From Sphingobacterium mizutaii (GTDB lineage Bacteria > Bacteroidota > Bacteroidia > Sphingobacteriales > Sphingobacteriaceae): a stretch of 64,000 bases of DNA. The position numbers and the translations under genes are program-made. Positions 6,166-53,779 of this stretch are shown here, piece after piece; the first letter of the stretch is position 1; each line of letters opens with the position of its first letter. Location: NCBI RefSeq assembly GCF_900187125.1, contig NZ_LT906468.1:1364001-1428000 (forward strand), in the 5' to 3' direction. Below the pieces are notes generated by a model. It did no database searches and was not told where the DNA came from. It saw nothing but the letters and a program-made list of their open reading frames with translations.

Positions 6166-9100
6166 TTAATCCTTATTGTTTGCCCATTTTTTGCGTTCCA
6201 CGATATAGTATACCAATGGCACGACGAACAAGGTCAAGATCGTAGATACGATGGCACCACCCACCAGAGAGATGGCTAGACCTTGGAAAATAGGGTCGAA
6301 AAGAATAACCGATGCACCGAGAACCACCGCTCCAGTCGTCAAAAGGATAGGCGTGGTCCGGACAGCACCAGCATCAATGATGGCCTGTTTCAATGGAATT
6401 CCATCCTTCAGCCTGATCTCGATAAAGTCGATCAGCAACACGGAGTTCCTCACCATAACTCCAGCCAGGGCAATCATCCCAATGAATGAAGTAGCCGTGA
6501 AGAAGGCCCCCAACAGCCAGTGGCCGAGTACAATTCCGATCAGTGATAATGGGATTGCCACCATCATGACAATCGGTGTTTTGAAATCTTGGAACCAGCC
6601 TACGATCAGCATGTAGATAATGATGATCACGACCATAAAGGCAATTCCTAAGTCACGGAACACTTCTAGGGTAATTTGCCATTCCCCATCCCACTTAACT
6701 GTGAAATTGCTGGTTTCCTTAGGTTGACCCATGTATAGGTCGGAGATTTCATATCCTGTAGGCAATTTCATTTGCTTCAGGGTTTCCTCCATTCCCAAGA
6801 TGGCATAAGCAGGACTTTCCAGATCACCAGCCATATCCGCAAGGACATAAACAACGCGCTGCTGATCCTTTCTACTGATGGATTTTCTCAGGGTATCTTG
6901 TTTTACCTGTACGATATCACGAACAGGGACCATGTTGCCTTGCTGACCTTTGATCTTCAGGTTCTGGATATCGTCAATATTCGTTTTGTCCTTATCGTCT
7001 AAGGCCATCACGATGCCCACTGGATTCACCGACTTTTCATCGTAAAGATTAGAAATAGGGTATTCACGCAAGAGATAAGTCAGGTTGCCAACCACTTGTT
7101 GTGGAGCAATACCATTCAACATGGCTTTTTCCTTGTCTACTTCCAATTTATATTCGGTCTGCACATCTTCAACTCCCCAGTCCACATCGACCACATCATT
7201 GGTCTTTTTCAGGATTTCCTTGACTTGATAAGCCACCTTGATCTGCTCCTGATAGTCAGGACCATAAACTTCCGCAACAATGGTCGATAATACTGGAGGG
7301 CCAGGAGGAACTTCAACAATCTTCACATTGGCATGATGCTTTTGAGCAATGGCCTGAATCGCTGGTCTAATACGCTTTGCAATAGCATGGCTCTGCTCAT
7401 CACGATCCGTTTTGTCCAACAGATTCACTTGGATGTCTGCCATGTTACTTCCACCACGCAGGTCATAGTGACGAACCAAACCATTGAAGGTAATCGGAGC
7501 CGATGTTCCTATATAATTCTGATAGTTTACAACCTCAGGCACAGTCGTTAAATATTGAGAAATTTCCTTGGCTACGGCCGATGTTCTTTCTAAGGTCGTG
7601 CCTTCCGGCATATCGATCACCACCTGGAATTCATTTTTGTTGTCAAACGGAAGCATCTTTACGGCAACCGATTTTGTAAAGAACATACCCACCGATCCAA
7701 ATAGAAGAACCACAGTCAGCCCTAGAACCAACCAACGTTTCTTGGAGTTGTCGAGTAAGGGTTTTTCAAACTTGTTATAGATCTTATAAATCCAACTGGT
7801 CTGGTGTCCCTGTTCCTCTTTTTCATGTTGTTTCTCTTTTTCATTCAATAAATGGTAGCCTAGGTAAGGCGTAATGGTCAATGCAACAAATAGGGAAAGT
7901 AACATGGCAATGGATGCACCAATTGGCATAGGGCTCATATAAGGGCCCATCATTCCTGAAACGAAGGCCATCGGTAGAATAGCCGCAATAACAGTGAAAG
8001 TTGCCAAGATGGTCGGGTTACCTACTTCATTGATCGCATAAATAGCGGCATCCTTGAATGGCAGTTTGCGCATCTTGAAATGCCTGTGCATATTCTCTGC
8101 AATGATAATACTATCATCCACCACGATACCTACGACAAAGACCAGAGCGAATAAGGTAATCCGGTTCAAGGTGTAGCCCAGCATATAATAGCTAAAGAGT
8201 GTCAGAGCAAAGGTCAGCGGTACAGAAAGGAACACAACCAATCCACCACGCCAGCCCATAGCCAGCATTACCAATGCCGTAACTGCTACAATGGCCACTC
8301 CAAGGTGGAACAGCAATTCATTTACTTTATGTGAAGCTGTTTCCCCATAGTTCCTGGTTACTTCTACTTTTACATCCTTAGGGATCAAGTTGTCCTGTAA
8401 TTTCTCTACACGTTTCAAGATCTGCTCCGAAATCTGCATCGCATCCGCGCCTTGCACTTTCGCAATGGAAAGGGTGACAGCAGGGTATTCCGATGGATTG
8501 CTTTCGAAGTTCTCATTGTTCTTGCTGTATCCAAAAGACACATAGCTTTTGGCTGTTCCAGCAGCATCATTGATCTGTGCGACCTGTTTTAGGTAAACTG
8601 GCATCTGTTGGTGCACACCAACCACCAAGTTTTCCATATCTTCTTTGCTTGCCAAGAATTGACCAGTTGTCAATAAAAACTCTTGATCGTGCTGAACAAA
8701 GCTACCTGACTGCATGCTGCCATTATTGGCTTGGATCATCTGCATGATACTCAAGGCATCAACACCATTCTCAGCCATCTTATCTTTATCCAAGACCACT
8801 TTCAATTCGCGACTACGGCCACCAATTTCTTTAATGGTCGAGACATCCTTGATCTTTTTGATTTCTGAGGATACCTCTTCCGCCATCTGACGGATTTGGA
8901 AATCATCGTATCGATCGCTCCAAAGGGTCAGTGCCAACATTGGCACATCGTTTATCGACCTTGTTTTAACAACCGGAGGATACACACCCTGAGGGAATAT
9001 ATGCTGGTTTTTTATCAACTCATCATAGAGTTTTACATAGGAACGTTCAATATCTTCGCCCACATAAAATTGGACGATGATCATGGCCTGCCCGTTCATG

Positions 9101-9366
9101 GCAGTACTATGTAGGTGTTCCACACCTTTGATATTGGAAATGATTTTTTCCAAGGGTTCCAATACCCTTCTTTCAACTTCTTCCGGGCTTGCACCAGGGT
9201 AACCGACCATAATGTCGGCCATTGGGACGTTGATTTGAGGTTCTTCCTCTCTAGGGATCAACGAAGAACTATATACACCGATGATCATCAACCCAACCAT
9301 CAACAGTATGGATAGTTTGGAGTTCAAGAACATCGAGGCTATTTTACCTGATAAACCATTTTGCAT
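6166..9366 (-). CDS. RND efflux transporter permease subunit
   Basis: A 1066-aa inner-membrane proton antiporter of the AcrB/CzcA superfamily, of normal length. It has TM1 at about 13-32, a first periplasmic loop with the usual EEEPQINVP and YPGASPEEVE, a helix bundle at about 345-545 holding the proton-relay motif VVGIVVDDSIIIAEN in TM4, TM7 at about 555-575, a second porter loop, and a C-terminal bundle (about 870-1060) with SFIGMIALAGVMVRNSVLLI. It forms a tripartite pump with the adaptor and TolC encoded just upstream. The substrate cannot be read from sequence. It has the VDDS form of TM4, and I see no methionine ladder that would mark a copper pump. The operon promoter shares an operator with the sulfur cluster at 50-51 kb. 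Confidence 0.95.
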   Translation of the reverse strand: MQNGLSGKIASMFLNSKLSILLMVGLMIIGVYSSSLIPREEEPQINVPMADIMVGYPGASPEEVERRVLEPLEKIISNIKGVEHLHSTAMNGQAMIIVQFYVGEDIERSYVKLYDELIKNQHIFPQGVYPPVVKTRSINDVPMLALTLWSDRYDDFQIRQMAEEVSSEIKKIKDVSTIKEIGGRSRELKVVLDKDKMAENGVDALSIMQMIQANNGSMQSGSFVQHDQEFLLTTGQFLASKEDMENLVVGVHQQMPVYLKQVAQINDAAGTAKSYVSFGYSKNNENFESNPSEYPAVTLSIAKVQGADAMQISEQILKRVEKLQDNLIPKDVKVEVTRNYGETASHKVNELLFHLGVAIVAVTALVMLAMGWRGGLVVFLSVPLTFALTLFSYYMLGYTLNRITLFALVFVVGIVVDDSIIIAENMHRHFKMRKLPFKDAAIYAINEVGNPTILATFTVIAAILPMAFVSGMMGPYMSPMPIGASIAMLLSLFVALTITPYLGYHLLNEKEKQHEKEEQGHQTSWIYKIYNKFEKPLLDNSKKRWLVLGLTVVLLFGSVGMFFTKSVAVKMLPFDNKNEFQVVIDMPEGTTLERTSAVAKEISQYLTTVPEVVNYQNYIGTSAPITFNGLVRHYDLRGGSNMADIQVNLLDKTDRDEQSHAIAKRIRPAIQAIAQKHHANVKIVEVPPGPPVLSTIVAEVYGPDYQEQIKVAYQVKEILKKTNDVVDVDWGVEDVQTEYKLEVDKEKAMLNGIAPQQVVGNLTYLLREYPISNLYDEKSVNPVGIVMALDDKDKTNIDDIQNLKIKGQQGNMVPVRDIVQVKQDTLRKSISRKDQQRVVYVLADMAGDLESPAYAILGMEETLKQMKLPTGYEISDLYMGQPKETSNFTVKWDGEWQITLEVFRDLGIAFMVVIIIIYMLIVGWFQDFKTPIVMMVAIPLSLIGIVLGHWLLGAFFTATSFIGMIALAGVMVRNSVLLIDFIEIRLKDGIPLKQAIIDAGAVRTTPILLTTGAVVLGASVILFDPIFQGLAISLVGGAIVSTILTLFVVPLVYYIVERKKWANNKD

Positions 9367-9410
9367 TGCTCTGAATTTAAATTTTAAAGATTTTTACCTG
9401 TTCTGAAGGC

Positions 9411-10496
9411 TTATTTAGCCTTGATTTGAACTCCGTTGAATAATCGTCCATCAGCCTTTAGCACATACTTTTCATTTTCTGATAAGCCGGATAGGACCTC
9501 AACATCATTTCCATAGGTTTTACCCAACCTTACCCATCTCAATAGTGCAATGTTTTGGTCATTTAGGACATAGATTCCTTTCAATTGCCCTTCCTCAATG
9601 ATGGCTTCCTTCGGGATAAGGGTCATGCTTGTCGCCGATTCTGCAGATGCACTGCGTTCAATTGGGAATACCGCTTGGACAAACATGCCTGAAAGGATCT
9701 GCGCAGGTTCATCTAAATTGATCTTGACGATGTATTGTCCGCCTGTATTCTGTGCAGAACTGCTCATTTCAGCTACTCTACCTTTAATGGTTTTTTGAGT
9801 CGACTTAATGGTCACATCAGCCTTCATGCCGTTTTTTATATTCAAGATCTCACTCTCGGATACCATCACTACCGCTTGAAGTTTAGAAGCACCTTCCATG
9901 CTAATAATTGGCATACCTGGATTCGCCATATCACCTTTCTTCATGAAAGTCCCGGTAATAACTCCACTGAAAGGAGCGGTAATATTGGAATAGGAGAATT
10001 GTGCCATGACTTCATTGCGCATTTGTTTGGCAGCTTCCAATCCTGCCTTTGCCATTTCCATTCGGGTGCTCATATCATCCAGTTCCTTTTGGCTAGCACT
10101 TTTTTGAGCAAACAAGGCCTCAAAGCGTTCGTAATCTTTTCTTGCATTATTATAGCCTGCATTTGCTTGTGCAATTCCAGCTTCTGCCTGTGCTTTTTTA
10201 GCGGCCAGGTCATTGCTGCTGATTCGAGCCAATAGTTGACCTTGAGAGACCTTTTGTCCGGTTTTGACGGTAATATCAGTCACGAATCCCATTAATCGCG
10301 TGCTGATCATCGCACTGTTCTCTGCTTCTATTTTACCGCTGGCAGTTACATATTTTCCTTGGTTTGATCCTGCAGTTTGTCCTATCGTTGCAGAGATAGC
10401 TGGTAGTTCCACCTTCTTTTGTTCTGCTTGATTCGAGCAGGAAGAAAGGGAGCCCAAAAGAGCTAAAAAGCTTATAGATGTTAATATTGTCTTCAT
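9411..10496 (-). CDS. RND periplasmic adaptor (membrane fusion protein), lipoprotein
   Basis: A 361-aa adaptor linking the inner-membrane permease to TolC. It has a lipoprotein signal (LLGSLSSC), a barrel-sandwich segment beginning GKIEAENSAMISTRLMGFV, an alpha-helical hairpin (about 100-165, rich in Ala, Lys and Glu), the returning lipoyl half (FSYSNITAPFSGVITGTF), a beta-barrel and a membrane-proximal domain (GRLFNGVQIKAK at the end). It starts 8 nt after the tolC stop and is followed 44 nt later by the permease. The order TolC-adaptor-permease is common in Bacteroidota. Confidence 0.93.
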   Translation of the reverse strand: MKTILTSISFLALLGSLSSCSNQAEQKKVELPAISATIGQTAGSNQGKYVTASGKIEAENSAMISTRLMGFVTDITVKTGQKVSQGQLLARISSNDLAAKKAQAEAGIAQANAGYNNARKDYERFEALFAQKSASQKELDDMSTRMEMAKAGLEAAKQMRNEVMAQFSYSNITAPFSGVITGTFMKKGDMANPGMPIISMEGASKLQAVVMVSESEILNIKNGMKADVTIKSTQKTIKGRVAEMSSSAQNTGGQYIVKINLDEPAQILSGMFVQAVFPIERSASAESATSMTLIPKEAIIEEGQLKGIYVLNDQNIALLRWVRLGKTYGNDVEVLSGLSENEKYVLKADGRLFNGVQIKAK

Positions 10497-10504
10497 TTTA
10501 TGAG

Positions 10505-11815
10505 TTAATTTGATGGTTGGGTTAAAAACTTAATTTGTATGATGGAAAGGTTGTATTCTTTGATCGCTTCCAACAACTCCACTTGTTTCTCGAAATCCTT
10601 AGCTTGAGCAACCAATAAGTCGGAGGTTTTTTCCAGACCTTGGCTATAGCGGTTTTCCAAAATCCTTAGGGATTCAGAAGCTTGTTTTTGTGCAGTTTCC
10701 GTTAAGCGGATCTTTGCTTGATTGGCAACTAGATCGCGTTTAGCTTTCTGCAATTCCAATTCATGTTTTTCAACATAGACTAGCATTTCGGATTCAGCCT
10801 TCGCATAGGAGATTTGGCTCTGTTTGATTTTATTCTGGGTTTCATTCCCATTGAAAATATCCCATGAAAGCGAGATTCCAGCTAAGTAGCCATTTGCACC
10901 GAAGCCTACAATCTTCTTGTCGTTGAAGTTATATTCCCCAAAGGCATTGATTCTTGGCAGTAATTTTTTTCTGTTCATATCAATCATCTGTCCTTGTGCT
11001 GCTAAGCCTGAAACCATGGCCCTGATGTCAGCTCTTTCTTGTGAGAACGTCAATTGATCAGTAGCTAAGCTCATGCTAGCCAGAGGCGTATCAGGTATGT
11101 AGATTTCATTGGCAGGCTTGCCCATTAACCAGTTCAGGTAATCCGAAAGATTAGAGATATGGTTGTCGACTTCAATACCTTTGTTCTGAACCTCCGAGAG
11201 TCCTACCTGTACCAAATAGACATCCGAAGCTTTGGCATATCCTTGTTGTTCCATATTTCTGGTGTTGCGCAATACCTCTTCATAGGCAATCTGTCCCTTT
11301 TCTACAGCTTTCTTCGCTTCATAAAGGAACTGAAGGTTGCTATAGGCTTTTTCGATCTCTACAACCAGCATCTCTTCTGCGAATTTCTTTTGGTATTGAT
11401 TGGCGGCAATTTTTTCTTTCAAGGCTTTTCTTGCCGAATAGACATCAAAGTTCAAAAGGGGTTGTTGAAAGGCTAGTTTGGTATTGAAATGAGCCATATC
11501 ATCAGGGTTGTTCAACAGGTCCGGATTGAAATCTGCTGCGGTCACCGTTTTTTGCTGAAGCTTGAATCCAAATGAATTCAAAGGGTCATTGGTGAAAAAT
11601 GCCGTGTGGCTCACAGATACTTTCGGAAGAAATCCAGATTTAGTTCCTTCCAGTTCTGCATTGGAGAAGTCAATTTCTTTTTGTTGTACCCGAAGCTGCG
11701 AATTGTTCTGCTTCATTTGGCTGATCGCTTCTTCTAAGCTCAATGGCTGCTGCGCCTTTAAATAGCTGCTCAATGAAGAAAGGATAATAATTAGTACTAT
11801 AAATCTTTTATACAT
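10505..11815 (-). CDS. TolC-family outer-membrane efflux protein
   Basis: A 436-aa outer-membrane channel subunit, first gene of the efflux operon. It has a signal peptide (cut near LSSYLKAQ), two repeats of long amphipathic helices (for example QPLSLEEAISQMKQNNSQLR and ISLSWDIFNGNETQNKIK, the WDIFNG turn being typical) and a C-terminal helix containing NRYSQGLEKTSDLL. Length is normal. The start at 11815 leaves a leader of about 20 nt behind a -7 element with an upstream Crp/Fnr-type site. A second TolC-family gene with little visible similarity begins at 62749. Confidence 0.93.
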   Translation of the reverse strand: MYKRFIVLIIILSSLSSYLKAQQPLSLEEAISQMKQNNSQLRVQQKEIDFSNAELEGTKSGFLPKVSVSHTAFFTNDPLNSFGFKLQQKTVTAADFNPDLLNNPDDMAHFNTKLAFQQPLLNFDVYSARKALKEKIAANQYQKKFAEEMLVVEIEKAYSNLQFLYEAKKAVEKGQIAYEEVLRNTRNMEQQGYAKASDVYLVQVGLSEVQNKGIEVDNHISNLSDYLNWLMGKPANEIYIPDTPLASMSLATDQLTFSQERADIRAMVSGLAAQGQMIDMNRKKLLPRINAFGEYNFNDKKIVGFGANGYLAGISLSWDIFNGNETQNKIKQSQISYAKAESEMLVYVEKHELELQKAKRDLVANQAKIRLTETAQKQASESLRILENRYSQGLEKTSDLLVAQAKDFEKQVELLEAIKEYNLSIIQIKFLTQPSN

Positions 11816-11840
11816 ACCTGATCGTATTTAATTAATAATG

Positions 11841-11884
11841 CAAAATTCAGATATGGCGAAGTGATTTTAGGTTACAGTAGTTAC
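11841..11884 (-). promoter_or_regulatory. Activator site plus -7 element of the RND efflux operon
   Basis: On the minus strand GTAAC-TACT-GTAAC (11884-11871) is followed after exactly 22 nt by GAATTTTG (11848-11841), a one-mismatch version of TAnnTTTG. No TTTG lies at -33. The same site and spacing occur at 50224-50267, 50300-50343 and 51342-51385. With a start about 5 nt after TTTG, the site is centred near -41. Confidence 0.7.
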
Positions 11885-49416: not shown

Positions 49417-50205
49417 TTACTTGCTGATCTCTTGGATGATGACCACAATCCCCATCAATAGAACAAACCAACCGAAAGCAGGTTTCAATTTTTTTCCATC
49501 AATCTTCTGGCTCAATTTGGAGCCGATCAAAATGCCTGTAATTGCAATTCCGGAAAGGGTCAATAGAAAGGTCCAGTTGATTAAATGGAAATCTAATTTT
49601 CCGATAAATCCAAAAAGTGAATTGGCCGCTATGATCAATAGGGAAGTACCCACTGCTTTCTTCATGGGCATTTGATTAAAGATAATCAAGGCAGGAATAA
49701 TTAGGAATCCGCCTCCAGCACCTACTAATCCGCTGATAAATCCTACCGCAGCTCCTTGAAAGACTAATGGTAGAACACTACGTTGACTTATTTTCTTGGA
49801 TTCATCAACCTGATTCCCTTTTATCATTTTTAATGCTGCAAATAACATCAGGATAGCGAATAGAAGCATGATCCCCATGTTTTTTGTTATTTCAAAGCTG
49901 CCGATCTGGAATAAGTGATTAGGAATTGCCTCGATGATGTATAATCGGGTCAGGAAAACCGTAATAATGGAGGGTAAACCAAAATACAGGGCTGTTTGGA
50001 AGTCCACCAAATTATTCCTGAAATATGGAACTGCACCCACAGCAGAGGTGGAGCCAACAATGAATAAGGAGTAGGAGGTAGCCAACAATGGGTCTATTTG
50101 AAATAAATAAACTAAAACAGGGACGGTTAAAATACTGCCACCACCACCAATCAATCCAAGTGAAATACCTATCCCAATCGACGCTATATATCCTAAAAAC
50201 TCCAT
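49417..50205 (-). CDS. TauE/SafE family sulfite/sulfur-compound exporter
   Basis: A 262-aa membrane protein with about eight helices. The two family repeats are visible: SLGLIGGGGSILTVPVLVYL at the N-terminus and FISGLVGAGGGFLIIPALII in the middle, followed by KKAVGTSLLIIAANSLFGFI. The family moves sulfite, sulfoacetate or other small sulfur compounds. I chose ATG 50205; an upstream TTG is less likely. It diverges from the YeeE-type genes. Its promoter has the GTAAC-N4-GTAAC site 22 nt before a GAACTTTG -7 element, as the other promoters of the sulfur regulon do. Confidence 0.88.
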   Translation of the reverse strand: MEFLGYIASIGIGISLGLIGGGGSILTVPVLVYLFQIDPLLATSYSLFIVGSTSAVGAVPYFRNNLVDFQTALYFGLPSIITVFLTRLYIIEAIPNHLFQIGSFEITKNMGIMLLFAILMLFAALKMIKGNQVDESKKISQRSVLPLVFQGAAVGFISGLVGAGGGFLIIPALIIFNQMPMKKAVGTSLLIIAANSLFGFIGKLDFHLINWTFLLTLSGIAITGILIGSKLSQKIDGKKLKPAFGWFVLLMGIVVIIQEISK

Positions 50206-50223
50206 AAATAAATTTTTCTTCCA

Positions 50224-50267
50224 CAAAGTTCCGGGAAAGTTTTTTTGGAGTTAGTTACATTAGTTAC
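50224..50267 (-). promoter_or_regulatory. Activator site and -7 element of tauE
   Basis: On the minus strand GTAAC-TAAT-GTAAC (50267-50254), exactly 22 nt, then GAACTTTG (50231-50224). The -7 element has one mismatch to TAnnTTTG. There is no -33 TTTG. Confidence 0.72.
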
Positions 50268-50299
50268 ATAGCTATGAAGCAGTTTTGCACAGGTATTGA

Positions 50300-50343
50300 G
50301 TAACTTTGGTTACTAAAAGACTTTTTTTAAGACCGTACTTTTG
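50300..50343 (+). promoter_or_regulatory. Activator site and -7 element of the YeeE operon
   Basis: GTAAC-TTTG-GTTAC (50300-50313), a perfect palindrome, exactly 22 nt, then TACTTTTG (50336-50343), an exact TAnnTTTG. The leader to ATG 50365 is about 17 nt. It sits back to back with the tauE promoter. Confidence 0.75.
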
Positions 50344-50364
50344 CAGAAAATTTATTTAACGACT

Positions 50365-50913
50365 ATGGATTTATTAATGGGGCCTTGGCCCTGGTACGTC
50401 GGCGGCTCACTAGTCGCCCTTATTATGCTGGCTTTAATTTTACTAGGTAGAACTTTTGGATTTTCATCCAATTTCAGAAACATCTGCGCTGTCCTTGGGG
50501 CAGGCAATTCCTGTAGCTTTTTTAAATTTGATTGGAGAACACAGATGTGGAACCTGTTGTTCCTGCTAGGTTCCGTGATTGGTGGCTTTCTTGCTGCTCA
50601 TTTTCTTTCCGACAACCAAATTCCTCAAATTTCCGAACAAACAGTGACAGATTTAAAGGAACTAGGAATTGAAAGTGCAGGAGCAGCTTACTCCCCAACC
50701 GAAATCTTCGAAACCATCAACGCGAAAAATATCGCCATCCTTGCAATTGGAGGTTTATTGATCGGTTTCGGAACGAGGTATGCAGGCGGTTGTACTTCCG
50801 GACATGCTATCTCGGGCCTCAGTGATCTACAATGGCCATCTTTGATTGCTGTTGTTGGCTTTTTTATCGGTGGACTGGTCATGGTTCATCTATTATTTCC
50901 CCTTATTTTTTAA
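50365..50913 (+). CDS. YeeE/YedE family thiosulfate-type transporter, first half
   Basis: A 182-aa membrane protein with about five helices. It has the family signature [20 protein letters not shown], whose Cys is the thiol that relays thiosulfate in YeeE, and a further Cys in [11 protein letters not shown]. Full-length YeeE is about 350 aa, so this protein and the next (50917) are probably the two halves of one transporter, encoded 3 nt apart. I chose ATG 50365; the TTG at 50341 would put the -7 element inside the gene. Confidence 0.88.
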
Positions 50914-50916
50914 GAC

Positions 50917-51330
50917 ATGAAAAAATTAATATTTATATTATTAGGCGTAGCTTTTGGTGTTGTCATGTATAAAGCCGAGGCTGCCTCATGGTTTCGTATC
51001 TATGAAATGTTCAGTTTCCAATCTTTTCACATGTATGGATTTATGGCAACTGCCTTATTGATCGGCCTTCCTGCAGTACAATATCTGAAACGAAAGAAAG
51101 TAAAGGATGTAAATGGCGATTCGGTATCTATTACACCTAAAGCCAAATCCATTCCTAGGTACCTTATTGGTGGTATTATCTTTGGACTTGGTTGGGCATT
51201 GGTAGGTGCATGTCCAGGACCAGTTTTTGTGTTGATCGGTTCAGGTTTGTATAGCATGTTGATCGTGGCTGCTTTCGCTGTTCTAGGGACCTATATATAT
51301 GGTCTTGTAAGAGAGAAATTGCCTCATTAA
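50917..51330 (+). CDS. DUF6691 / YeeE-YedE family transporter, second half
   Basis: A 137-aa membrane protein with about four helices. The signature GGIIFGLGWALVGACPGPVF includes the family Cys in GACPGP, which lies on the substrate path in YeeE. The gene begins 3 nt after its partner and should be translationally coupled to it. Together they should take up thiosulfate or another sulfane-sulfur compound from the periplasm, for use by the rhodanese encoded next. Confidence 0.85.
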   Translation: MKKLIFILLGVAFGVVMYKAEAASWFRIYEMFSFQSFHMYGFMATALLIGLPAVQYLKRKKVKDVNGDSVSITPKAKSIPRYLIGGIIFGLGWALVGACPGPVFVLIGSGLYSMLIVAAFAVLGTYIYGLVREKLPH

Positions 51331-51341
51331 CAAATTGATGT

Positions 51342-51385
51342 GTAACAAAAGTAACGGATACTGGTATTTGATTGGCCTAACTTTG
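51342..51385 (+). promoter_or_regulatory. Internal activator site and -7 element before the rhodanese gene
   Basis: GTAAC-AAAA-GTAAC (51342-51355), exactly 22 nt, then TAACTTTG (51378-51385), an exact TAnnTTTG. It begins 12 nt after the preceding stop codon, so the rhodanese and MBL genes have their own regulated start as well as read-through. Confidence 0.72.
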
Positions 51386-51403
51386 TTGTATAAAATTATT
51401 GAT

Positions 51404-51712
51404 ATGATAAAATTATTAACAGTTCCAGAGTTTAAGGCTCAAATAAAAAATAACGACGTTCAACTACTTGATGTTAGAACAGAAATGGAATACGCATTAG
51501 GCAAGATTGATGGCTCTACTTTAATTAATGTACAGTCTTCTGATTTTATGGATCAAGCAAAAAAGTACATTAACTTTCAAAAACCAATCTATATCTATTG
51601 CCGTTCTGGAGCACGCTCGCACATGGCGGCCAAGATATTGGAAAACATGGGCGCAAAAGAAATTTTCGATCTACAAGGAGGATTTTTATCTTGGGCGCAA
51701 AACAATAAATAA
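51404..51712 (+). CDS. Single-domain rhodanese
   Basis: A 102-aa sulfurtransferase. The active-site loop IYCRSGARSHMAAKIL has the catalytic Cys in CRSGAR, the six-residue loop typical of sulfane-sulfur transferases, preceded by the conserved LLDVRTEMEYALGKIDGSTL. It moves sulfur from thiosulfate or persulfides to an acceptor such as a thiol. I chose ATG 51404, because the -7 element at 51378-51385 would lie inside a longer form. It lies between the transporter pair and the persulfide dioxygenase-like gene, an order consistent with a sulfur oxidation route. Confidence 0.92.
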   Translation: MIKLLTVPEFKAQIKNNDVQLLDVRTEMEYALGKIDGSTLINVQSSDFMDQAKKYINFQKPIYIYCRSGARSHMAAKILENMGAKEIFDLQGGFLSWAQNNK

Positions 51713-51761: not shown

Positions 51762-53141
51762 ATGTTTTTTCAACAAGTTTATGATAAAACCTTAGCTCAA
51801 GCCAGTTTCTTTATTGGCTGTCAAGCTAAAAACGAAGCGATTGTAATTGATGCAAAGAGGGATATTGATTCCTATTTGGAAATTGCAAAGCAAAATAACA
51901 TGAAGATTACGCACATTGCTGAAACACATATTCATGCCGACTTCCTAGCAGGTTCTCGCGAACTGGCTGAAGTAACGGGTGCTAAATTATATCTTTCTGA
52001 TGAAGGTGGTGAGAATTGGCAATATGAATTCCCTCATGTTGGCCTAAAAGAGGGAGATGTCATCAATGTGGGTAACCTGAGCTTAAAAGTTATGCATACT
52101 CCAGGACATACTCCTGAAAGTATCAGCTTCCTGTTGACAGACCATCCTGCATCCGAAGAGCCCGTAATGATCTTCACTGGTGACTTTGTTTTCGTAGGCG
52201 ATATCGGTAGACCTGACCTTTTAGAAGAGGCGGCGGGTCTGGTTGGTACTAAGGAAATTGGTGCTCAGCAGATGTTTGAATCCTTGAAAAAATTTGCCGC
52301 ATTACCAGATTACGTTCAGGTATGGCCCGGTCATGGTGCTGGATCTGCCTGTGGTAAAGCTTTAGGTGCTGTACCTAGCAGTACAGTTGGATATGAAAAG
52401 ATCAGAAACTGGGCTTTCCAATTCGGCGATGACTACGAAGGCTTCAAAAATTACTTGTTGAGCGATCAACCTGAAGCCCCGGTGTACTTTGCCATGATGA
52501 AGAAATTGAACAAAGTAGACAGACCTCTTTTGGTTGAAGTGCCAGAGCACCCAACATTATCGGTTGAAGAGGTTGAAAAGATGGATGATATCACCTTAAT
52601 AGATACCCGTCATAAAACTGAATTTGCTAAAGGTCACTTAAAGGACGCTATCAATATCCAAAACAATAATTCCCTGGCAAACTGGGCAGGATGGATGATT
52701 GGCTATGATGAAAACATGGTCATGATAGCAGACGAAGGTAACCAAGAAGAAATTACAAGAAAATTAATGCGTATCGGATTAGATAATATCAAAGGCTTTG
52801 TGACTGATTTGGATTCTGCTGAATTGGAAAAAACCAAGCTTGTCGGTGCCGATACTGTGGAAGCAATGAAAGATAATTCAGATACCGTATTGTTGGATGT
52901 TCGTGGAATCTCTGAATTCAAAGCTGAACATATACCAGGAGCTGAACATCGCTTTGTTGGTTCTTTTAGAAAGAAATTACCAACCGATATCAAAGATAAA
53001 AAGATCATTATTCAATGTCAATCTGGAGACAGAGCTACTATTGCGGCTTCTTACCTAGAAAAAAATGGTTTCAACCAAGTTTATAACTATGCCGGAAGTT
53101 TTATAGACTGGAAAAATCAAGGTAAAGAAACAACAAAATAG
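51762..53141 (+). CDS. MBL-fold persulfide dioxygenase-like protein fused to two rhodanese domains
   Basis: A 459-aa cytoplasmic fusion. The metallo-beta-lactamase domain (about 1-240) has THIHADFLAG, MHTPGHTPESI, TGDFVFVGDIGRPDL and VWPGHGAGSACGKA, the layout of ETHE1/CstB persulfide dioxygenases, which oxidise glutathione or other persulfides to sulfite with one Fe(II). The first rhodanese (about 265-350) has ADEGNQ where an active loop has C-x-x-G, so its catalytic Cys is replaced by Ala. The second (about 365-455) has the intact loop CQSGDRA. One dead and one live rhodanese match CstB-type enzymes. The rhodanese just upstream could hand it persulfide. It is followed 11 nt later by the Crp/Fnr regulator. 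Confidence 0.92.
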   Translation: MFFQQVYDKTLAQASFFIGCQAKNEAIVIDAKRDIDSYLEIAKQNNMKITHIAETHIHADFLAGSRELAEVTGAKLYLSDEGGENWQYEFPHVGLKEGDVINVGNLSLKVMHTPGHTPESISFLLTDHPASEEPVMIFTGDFVFVGDIGRPDLLEEAAGLVGTKEIGAQQMFESLKKFAALPDYVQVWPGHGAGSACGKALGAVPSSTVGYEKIRNWAFQFGDDYEGFKNYLLSDQPEAPVYFAMMKKLNKVDRPLLVEVPEHPTLSVEEVEKMDDITLIDTRHKTEFAKGHLKDAINIQNNNSLANWAGWMIGYDENMVMIADEGNQEEITRKLMRIGLDNIKGFVTDLDSAELEKTKLVGADTVEAMKDNSDTVLLDVRGISEFKAEHIPGAEHRFVGSFRKKLPTDIKDKKIIIQCQSGDRATIAASYLEKNGFNQVYNYAGSFIDWKNQGKETTK

Positions 53142-53152
53142 TATATTTGAGT

Positions 53153-53779
53153 ATGAGTCTAATAGAAAACGCTTATACCGGAATATTAGAACCCGCCTTA
53201 ATTGAAGAAATTGAGGCGGTTGCTACTTTAAAGACCTTTCAATCTGGCGACATAATTATTGATATCGGTCAATATATCCGTTCTATGCCCTTGCTATTAA
53301 CAGGAGCAATAAAGATCATGCGTGAGGATGAAAAGGAAGGGGAGTTGTTGCTTTATTATTTAGCAAAAGGTGAAACCTGTACCATGTCCATTGCTTGTTG
53401 CCTAGGGAACAAAAAAAGTGAGATCAGGGCACAAGCTGAAATGGAAACCGTAGTCGCCATGATTCCAAACCAATACCTCAACGAATGGCTTGTGAAGTAT
53501 AGTTCTTGGCGAAGCTTTATTTTAAACAGCTATTCTTCCCGAATGAACGAAATGCTTGGAGCCATCGATAACCTCGCATTCTCCAAAATGGAGGACCGAA
53601 TCATGAACTATCTCAAAGAAAAAGTGAAACTTACGGAAGACCGAATTCTGACGGTTACCCATCAGGATATTGCTTTAGACCTCAATACCTCCCGTGTAGT
53701 GGTCTCCAGGATCCTTAAGAAACTGGAAAATGAAGATAAGATCGTCCTTCTAAGAAATGAAATAAGGGTTTTAGTATAA
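53153..53779 (+). CDS. Crp/Fnr-family regulator with Cys cluster
   Basis: A 208-aa regulator. The cyclic-nucleotide-type domain (about 10-120) includes FQSGDIIIDIGQYIRSMPLL and LLYYLAKGETCTMSIACCLG, with Cys76, Cys82 and Cys83. The C-terminal winged helix has TVTHQDIALDLNTSRVVVSR as the HTH with recognition helix TSRVVVSRIL. It has no FNR-type N-terminal iron-sulfur Cys cluster. The three thiols near the effector pocket could respond to persulfide; that is inference. It is last in the sulfur operon, 11 nt after the MBL gene, and is the natural candidate to bind the 14-bp sites described. I chose ATG 53153 over the TTG two codons earlier. Confidence 0.9.
   Translation: MSLIENAYTGILEPALIEEIEAVATLKTFQSGDIIIDIGQYIRSMPLLLTGAIKIMREDEKEGELLLYYLAKGETCTMSIACCLGNKKSEIRAQAEMETVVAMIPNQYLNEWLVKYSSWRSFILNSYSSRMNEMLGAIDNLAFSKMEDRIMNYLKEKVKLTEDRILTVTHQDIALDLNTSRVVVSRILKKLENEDKIVLLRNEIRVLV

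Follow-up and report, generated by a model that had tools for sequence, protein, structure and literature searches.

Paired promoter sites of Sphingobacterium mizutaii most likely belong to a Bacteroidota-wide set of switches through which a Crp-type protein activates H2S and persulfide detoxification genes

In Escherichia coli, class II promoters that depend on Crp or FNR carry a 14-bp dyad of 5-4-5 layout, centred at -41.5 and bound by a regulator of the Crp/Fnr fold, with arms that read TTGAT or TGTGA. The cst operon of Staphylococcus aureus (tauE, cstA, cstB and sqr) provides a functional module of a TauE exporter, a CstB-type dioxygenase-rhodanese and SQR (PMC5480029). Persulfide-responsive control of sulfide oxidation genes is likewise exerted by the ArsR-family proteins SqrR/BigR/SoxR and by FisR; the ArsR-type persulfide sensors are reported to be repressors (PMC12423496, PMC5823870). 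Persulfidation of a Crp protein has been seen in Acinetobacter, with an effect that is not known (PMC7315123). Here we describe a locus from Sphingobacterium mizutaii in which the 5-4-5 promoter layout and centre, a regulator of the Crp/Fnr fold and the functional module of the cst operon occur together.

Paired sites and further sites in the genome

We analysed a window of 64,000 nucleotides, positions 1364001-1428000 of the 4.65 Mb, single-contig genome. The gene tauE, encoding a sulfite exporter TauE/SafE family protein (PF01925; 49417-50205, minus strand), stands back to back with a plus-strand operon that begins with two YeeE/YedE half-proteins, yeeA (PF04143; 50365-50913) and yeeB (PF04143, DUF6691; 50917-51330). 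On the tauE side, the operator GTAACTAATGTAAC (50267-50254, minus strand) is followed after 22 nt by the -7 element GAACTTTG (50231-50224, minus strand), with a predicted start near 50219 and the ATG at 50205. On the YeeE side, the operator GTAACTTTGGTTAC (50300-50313, plus strand), whose arms form a perfect palindrome, is followed after 22 nt by TACTTTTG (50336-50343, plus strand), with a predicted start near 50348 and the ATG at 50365. Our recheck agreed exactly with the sequences, coordinates and 22-nt distances that a first-pass annotation had given for both GTAAC-N4-GTWAC sites and both -7 boxes. That annotation called the two sites identical, which holds for their common consensus but not for the 4-nt spacer and one arm base.

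It had also named these two sites only and overlooked most of the set, including the one ahead of the operon whose last gene encodes the regulator. This third operator, GTAACAAAAGTAAC (51342-51355, plus strand), has the same 22-nt spacing to its -7 element TAACTTTG (51378-51385, plus strand; predicted start near 51390, ATG at 51404). The plus-strand operon behind it encodes a single-domain rhodanese (51404-51712), a CstB-type persulfide dioxygenase-rhodanese fusion (PDO; 51762-53141) and, as its last gene, starting about 12 nt behind PDO, the Crp/Fnr regulator (53153-53779) that we propose as the activator. Since the operator lies ahead of an operon ending in crp, we infer positive autoregulation. 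The PDO is a metallo-beta-lactamase and rhodanese fusion of 459 residues, and its best solved-structure matches are 3tp9 and 3r2u, the latter of which we take to be S. aureus CstB. A fourth operator, GTAACTACTGTAAC (11871-11884, minus strand), with the -7 element GAATTTTG (11841-11848, minus strand), precedes a minus-strand operon for a TolC-type outer membrane efflux protein (10505-11815), a membrane fusion protein (MFP; 9411-10496) and an RND (AcrB-type) pump (6166-9366). Elsewhere in the genome, a site with a -7 box lies upstream of an MFS gene (genome 3018928), and another, whose -7 box TAACTTTA has one mismatch, lies in the promoter of a gene (genome 2235453) that we take to be SQR from the look of its sequence and from gene neighbourhoods in relatives.

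At zero to one mismatch, the full pattern of dyad, 22 nt and -7 box has six matches in the genome, all of them in the promoters just described (tauE, YeeE, rhodanese-PDO-crp, TolC/MFP/RND, MFS and SQR). At two mismatches, the genome scan found it no commoner than the control. The GTAAC-N4-GTWAC 14-mer has 23 oriented matches genome-wide and its reversed control 132; we therefore rejected an enrichment of the 14-mer, and the dyad alone proves nothing. Most of the other exact dyads lie inside genes. One perfect dyad, GTAACTTTAGTTAC (genome 2051351-2051364), lies ahead of an NhaC-like antiporter gene at a distance of 164 nt, has no -7 box at +26 and was not counted. TTTG stands at exactly +26 in 5/23 oriented sites (P ~8e-7 for one offset, 2e-5 over 31 offsets). 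The non-random signal is the coupling of the dyad to the promoter, not the dyad itself.

In Flavobacterium johnsoniae, TAnnTTTG occupies -12 to -5 (PMC6847099). These coordinates put the dyad at -48 to -35, the 22-nt spacer at -34 to -13 and the centre at -41.5, which bears out the earlier placement near -41 and, with predicted starts, corresponds to the position of a class II activator. The predicted leaders are 14 nt for tauE, 17 nt for yeeA and 14 nt for the rhodanese gene. Position -12 is G in 2/4 window promoters. On inspection, TTTG is absent at -33 from both the tauE and the YeeE-operon promoters, as the first-pass annotation had noted. This absence carries little weight, since in Flavobacterium the -33 element is in any case hard to make out (PMC6847099).

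Conservation and co-occurrence with the regulator

We compared 80 loci with orthologs of the regulator from Sphingobacterium, Flavobacterium, Myroides, Maribacter, Aequorivita, Salegentibacter and others. Beside the crp ortholog, in varying order, are found tauE, yeeA/yeeB, PDO, rhodanese, sqr, an MFS gene and RND operons. The MFS proteins of these neighbourhoods are 84-86% identical to the site-carrying MFS protein of S. mizutaii, and several of the RND pumps are 77-88% identical to the window pump. Thus, genes that are scattered in S. mizutaii and share the site are clustered with the regulator elsewhere. The sulfur regulon appears to include an RND efflux pump, since an operator precedes its operon (6166-11884) and its relatives adjoin the crp ortholog in several genera.

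Across the 80 loci, TTTG stood at offset 26 from the dyad in 107 sites, and every other offset occurred at most 6 times; no exact match was found nearby in 26/80. We collected 103 distinct promoters chosen by site and TTTG only, with no requirement on the -12 and -11 bases. T was present at -12 in 83% and A at -11 in 94%, so that the box is the TAnnTTTG of the Bacteroidota primary-sigma promoter type. T is also common upstream of the arms (83%). Two bases past the dyad, G is found in 62%, with no TTTG there, and may be a remnant of the -33 element. The genes downstream were PDO (21), tauE (21), yeeA (18), tolC (10) and crp (2), 72 in total; the remainder includes, by the look of the sequence, genes for a thioredoxin, a c-type cytochrome, a SulP permease and a YeiH-like exporter. 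At three loci, small cysteine-containing proteins of ~120-136 residues have an operator upstream and lie near the crp ortholog.

The first-pass annotation had linked the sites to the protein at 53153, and two independent lines support this link, namely the synteny of its orthologs with the same genes and sites and the distribution of the pattern across genomes. At the family level (151 genomes), the exact promoter pattern occurs in 29/35 genomes with a strong ortholog and in 14/116 without (P=6e-15), and in several of these 14 it adjoins a Crp of this kind that is more diverged. At the phylum level (345 genomes), the counts are 26/36 with and 16/309 without (P=3e-20), that is, the exact pattern is missing in 10/36 strong-ortholog genomes and present in 16/309 others, and the reversed control showed no association (P=0.12). 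These P values overstate the independent evidence, because the loci share ancestry and the counts are not independent. In one genome where crp is located elsewhere, the sole exact match to the full pattern precedes yeeA-yeeB-tauE-PDO. Among four congeners with PDO and no detected ortholog, in three the 13-15 kb around PDO contain no site, even with two mismatches allowed; the fourth, G090, has no Crp match at 1e-20, yet its PDO gene is preceded by a one-mismatch site.

The regulator, its proposed mechanism and the alternatives

The protein at 53153 matches PF00027, PF13545 and PF00325 above the curated cut-off and has a fold match to CRP, placing it in the Crp/Fnr superfamily. It is not an FNR proper: the conserved cysteines are C76, C82 and C83 only, without the N-terminal cysteine cluster that holds a 4Fe-4S centre in FNR, and the recognition helix lacks the glutamate of the E--SR motif. 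These three cysteines and the helix S180-R181-V182-V183-[VI]184-S185-R186 (SRVVVSR in S. mizutaii) are invariant in 81/81 orthologs, the window protein included. CRP proper, which binds cAMP, has an arginine in its phosphate-binding cassette and the recognition helix SRETVGR; here the helix is a different one and the sequence of the cassette region is GETCTMSIACCLGNKKSEIRA. With equivalence to E. coli residues judged by eye, the cysteines presumably fall in the phosphate-binding cassette of CRP. The structure model is good overall, with pLDDT <50 at residues 79-88, which span C82/C83, and so we make no claim on thiol geometry.

The only close Crp paralog in the genome (2950154-2950753) is ~40% identical, with the helix SREVISR and C-T-S instead of C-C-C. 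In two further genomes, G057 and G105, divergent Crp proteins are encoded next to tauE and PDO, where the sites read GTAAC-N4-GTAAC. Their helix is TARVVVSR; the RVVVSR core and C76 are kept, and GG takes the place of CC. Thus, not all such regulators require C82/C83, the match between recognition helix and operator is stricter than that between the CC pair and the operator, and C76 may be a more basic sensory residue than C82/C83. A point against the scheme proposed below is that C76 is also kept in the paralog of S. mizutaii, which has a different recognition helix. In G057, the site is a few nucleotides from the crp gene and precedes tauE.

We propose that a dimer of the protein at 53153 would bind GTAAC-N4-GTTAC as its operator, centred at -41.5, and contact RNA polymerase at promoters with a TAnnTTTG -7 box and no clear -33 box. 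It would thereby turn on tauE, the YeeE pair, rhodanese-PDO-crp (its own operon, by positive autoregulation), SQR, the MFS transporter and the TolC/RND pump, a regulon predicted to oxidise and export sulfide-derived sulfur. SQR would convert sulfide to persulfide and the PDO-rhodanese fusion would convert persulfide to sulfite or thiosulfate, while TauE would export sulfur oxyanions and YeeE would move thiosulfate or sulfur. The target gene set points to sulfide or persulfide as the signal; the inducer is most likely persulfide or sulfane sulfur, and its sensors would be C76 together with C82/C83, at the place where Crp holds the phosphate of the cyclic nucleotide. The reading that fits the data best, to which we assign a probability of roughly 0.8, is a positively autoregulated class II activator of the Crp/Fnr type that governs sulfide and persulfide detoxification and so fills the role of the repressor CstR in Staphylococcus. 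The sites, their spacing and gene set, their conservation, their co-occurrence with the regulator and its invariant residues are observed; from them we infer binding, activation, signal and substrates.

The component of this scheme for which an alternative has the most substance is the signal. A class II activator of the same genes could respond instead to oxygen, nitric oxide, cAMP or general thiol oxidation, since Crp/Fnr proteins sense many signals, C82/C83 are missing from the G057/G105 subgroup at the same genes, and the sulfide and nitroxyl responses of S. aureus overlap (PMC5480029). We regard this as a possible but minority outcome, given targets devoted almost wholly to sulfide and persulfide handling and cysteines that do not vary in 81 orthologs. 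The protein could also bind these sites as a repressor released by persulfide, in the way of CstR or SqrR. Known sulfide and persulfide regulators are often repressors (PMC9774590), and a protein at -41 could block polymerase; however, a blocking position is usually flexible, so that one exact spacing over many genes and genera suits polymerase contact better, and the promoters have no -33 box for unaided polymerase. The fixed spacing and missing -33 box thus favour class II activation, and we consider repression improbable.

Were the site used by a different DNA-binding protein, the adjacent crp gene would be a bystander. The Crp paralog at 2950154 is available for such a role and G090 has its near-site with no detected ortholog, but co-occurrence and synteny follow the 53153 protein and the paralog has a different recognition helix, which makes this explanation rather less probable than repression. 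Chance is the least credible origin of the paired sites. The lack of genome-wide enrichment for the 14-mer and for the two-mismatch pattern is what chance would give, but the offset histogram, the unselected TA at -12/-11, the gene set and the co-occurrence already refute it.

Comparison with known systems

In the open literature that we searched, we found no description of a Crp/Fnr sulfide or persulfide regulator, of the GTAAC operator or of this regulon in Bacteroidota, nor any sulfide regulator in this phylum. If the activator reading holds, Bacteroidota gain a sulfide/persulfide regulon with a defined operator, regulator and target list, and one RND pump as well as one MFS transporter would have roles linked to sulfur. 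It would also show that an activator can make up for the weakness of the -33 element in promoters of Bacteroidota, and the paralog with SREVISR and C-T-S offers a natural contrast for operator specificity. It would further point to a recruitment of the Crp/Fnr fold to the sensing of sulfur, by way of ligand-pocket cysteines. We give about even odds to the wider proposal of a dedicated persulfide-sensing Crp/Fnr branch, in which a thiol cluster replaces the cyclic-nucleotide pocket and which, with its own operator GTAAC-N4-GTTAC, would act widely across Bacteroidota as the class II activator for detoxifying sulfide, its control extending to an RND and an MFS exporter with sulfur species as possible cargo.

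The best match in the PDB by both sequence and fold is 3dv8, a Crp/Fnr protein from Eubacterium rectale whose record assigns no function, with cysteines at the C76 and C82 positions, but with no third cysteine and at ~22% identity. We found no information on its regulon; thiol sensing may occur in this Firmicutes relative too. Compared with the class II promoters of E. coli, the arms are GTAAC, the recognition helix has V where E. coli has glutamate, and the -10 element is replaced by the -7 box of the Bacteroidota primary sigma factor. SqrR/BigR/SoxR and FisR have protein folds unrelated to Crp/Fnr. We found no member of the CsoR/CstR family (CsoR domain, PF02583) in the S. mizutaii genome, in a search that detected its controls. 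Whereas CstR of S. aureus is a CsoR-family repressor, the regulator here is of the Crp/Fnr type and its sites are distributed among several promoters, and the cst-type module would thus be under an activator where S. aureus has a repressor.
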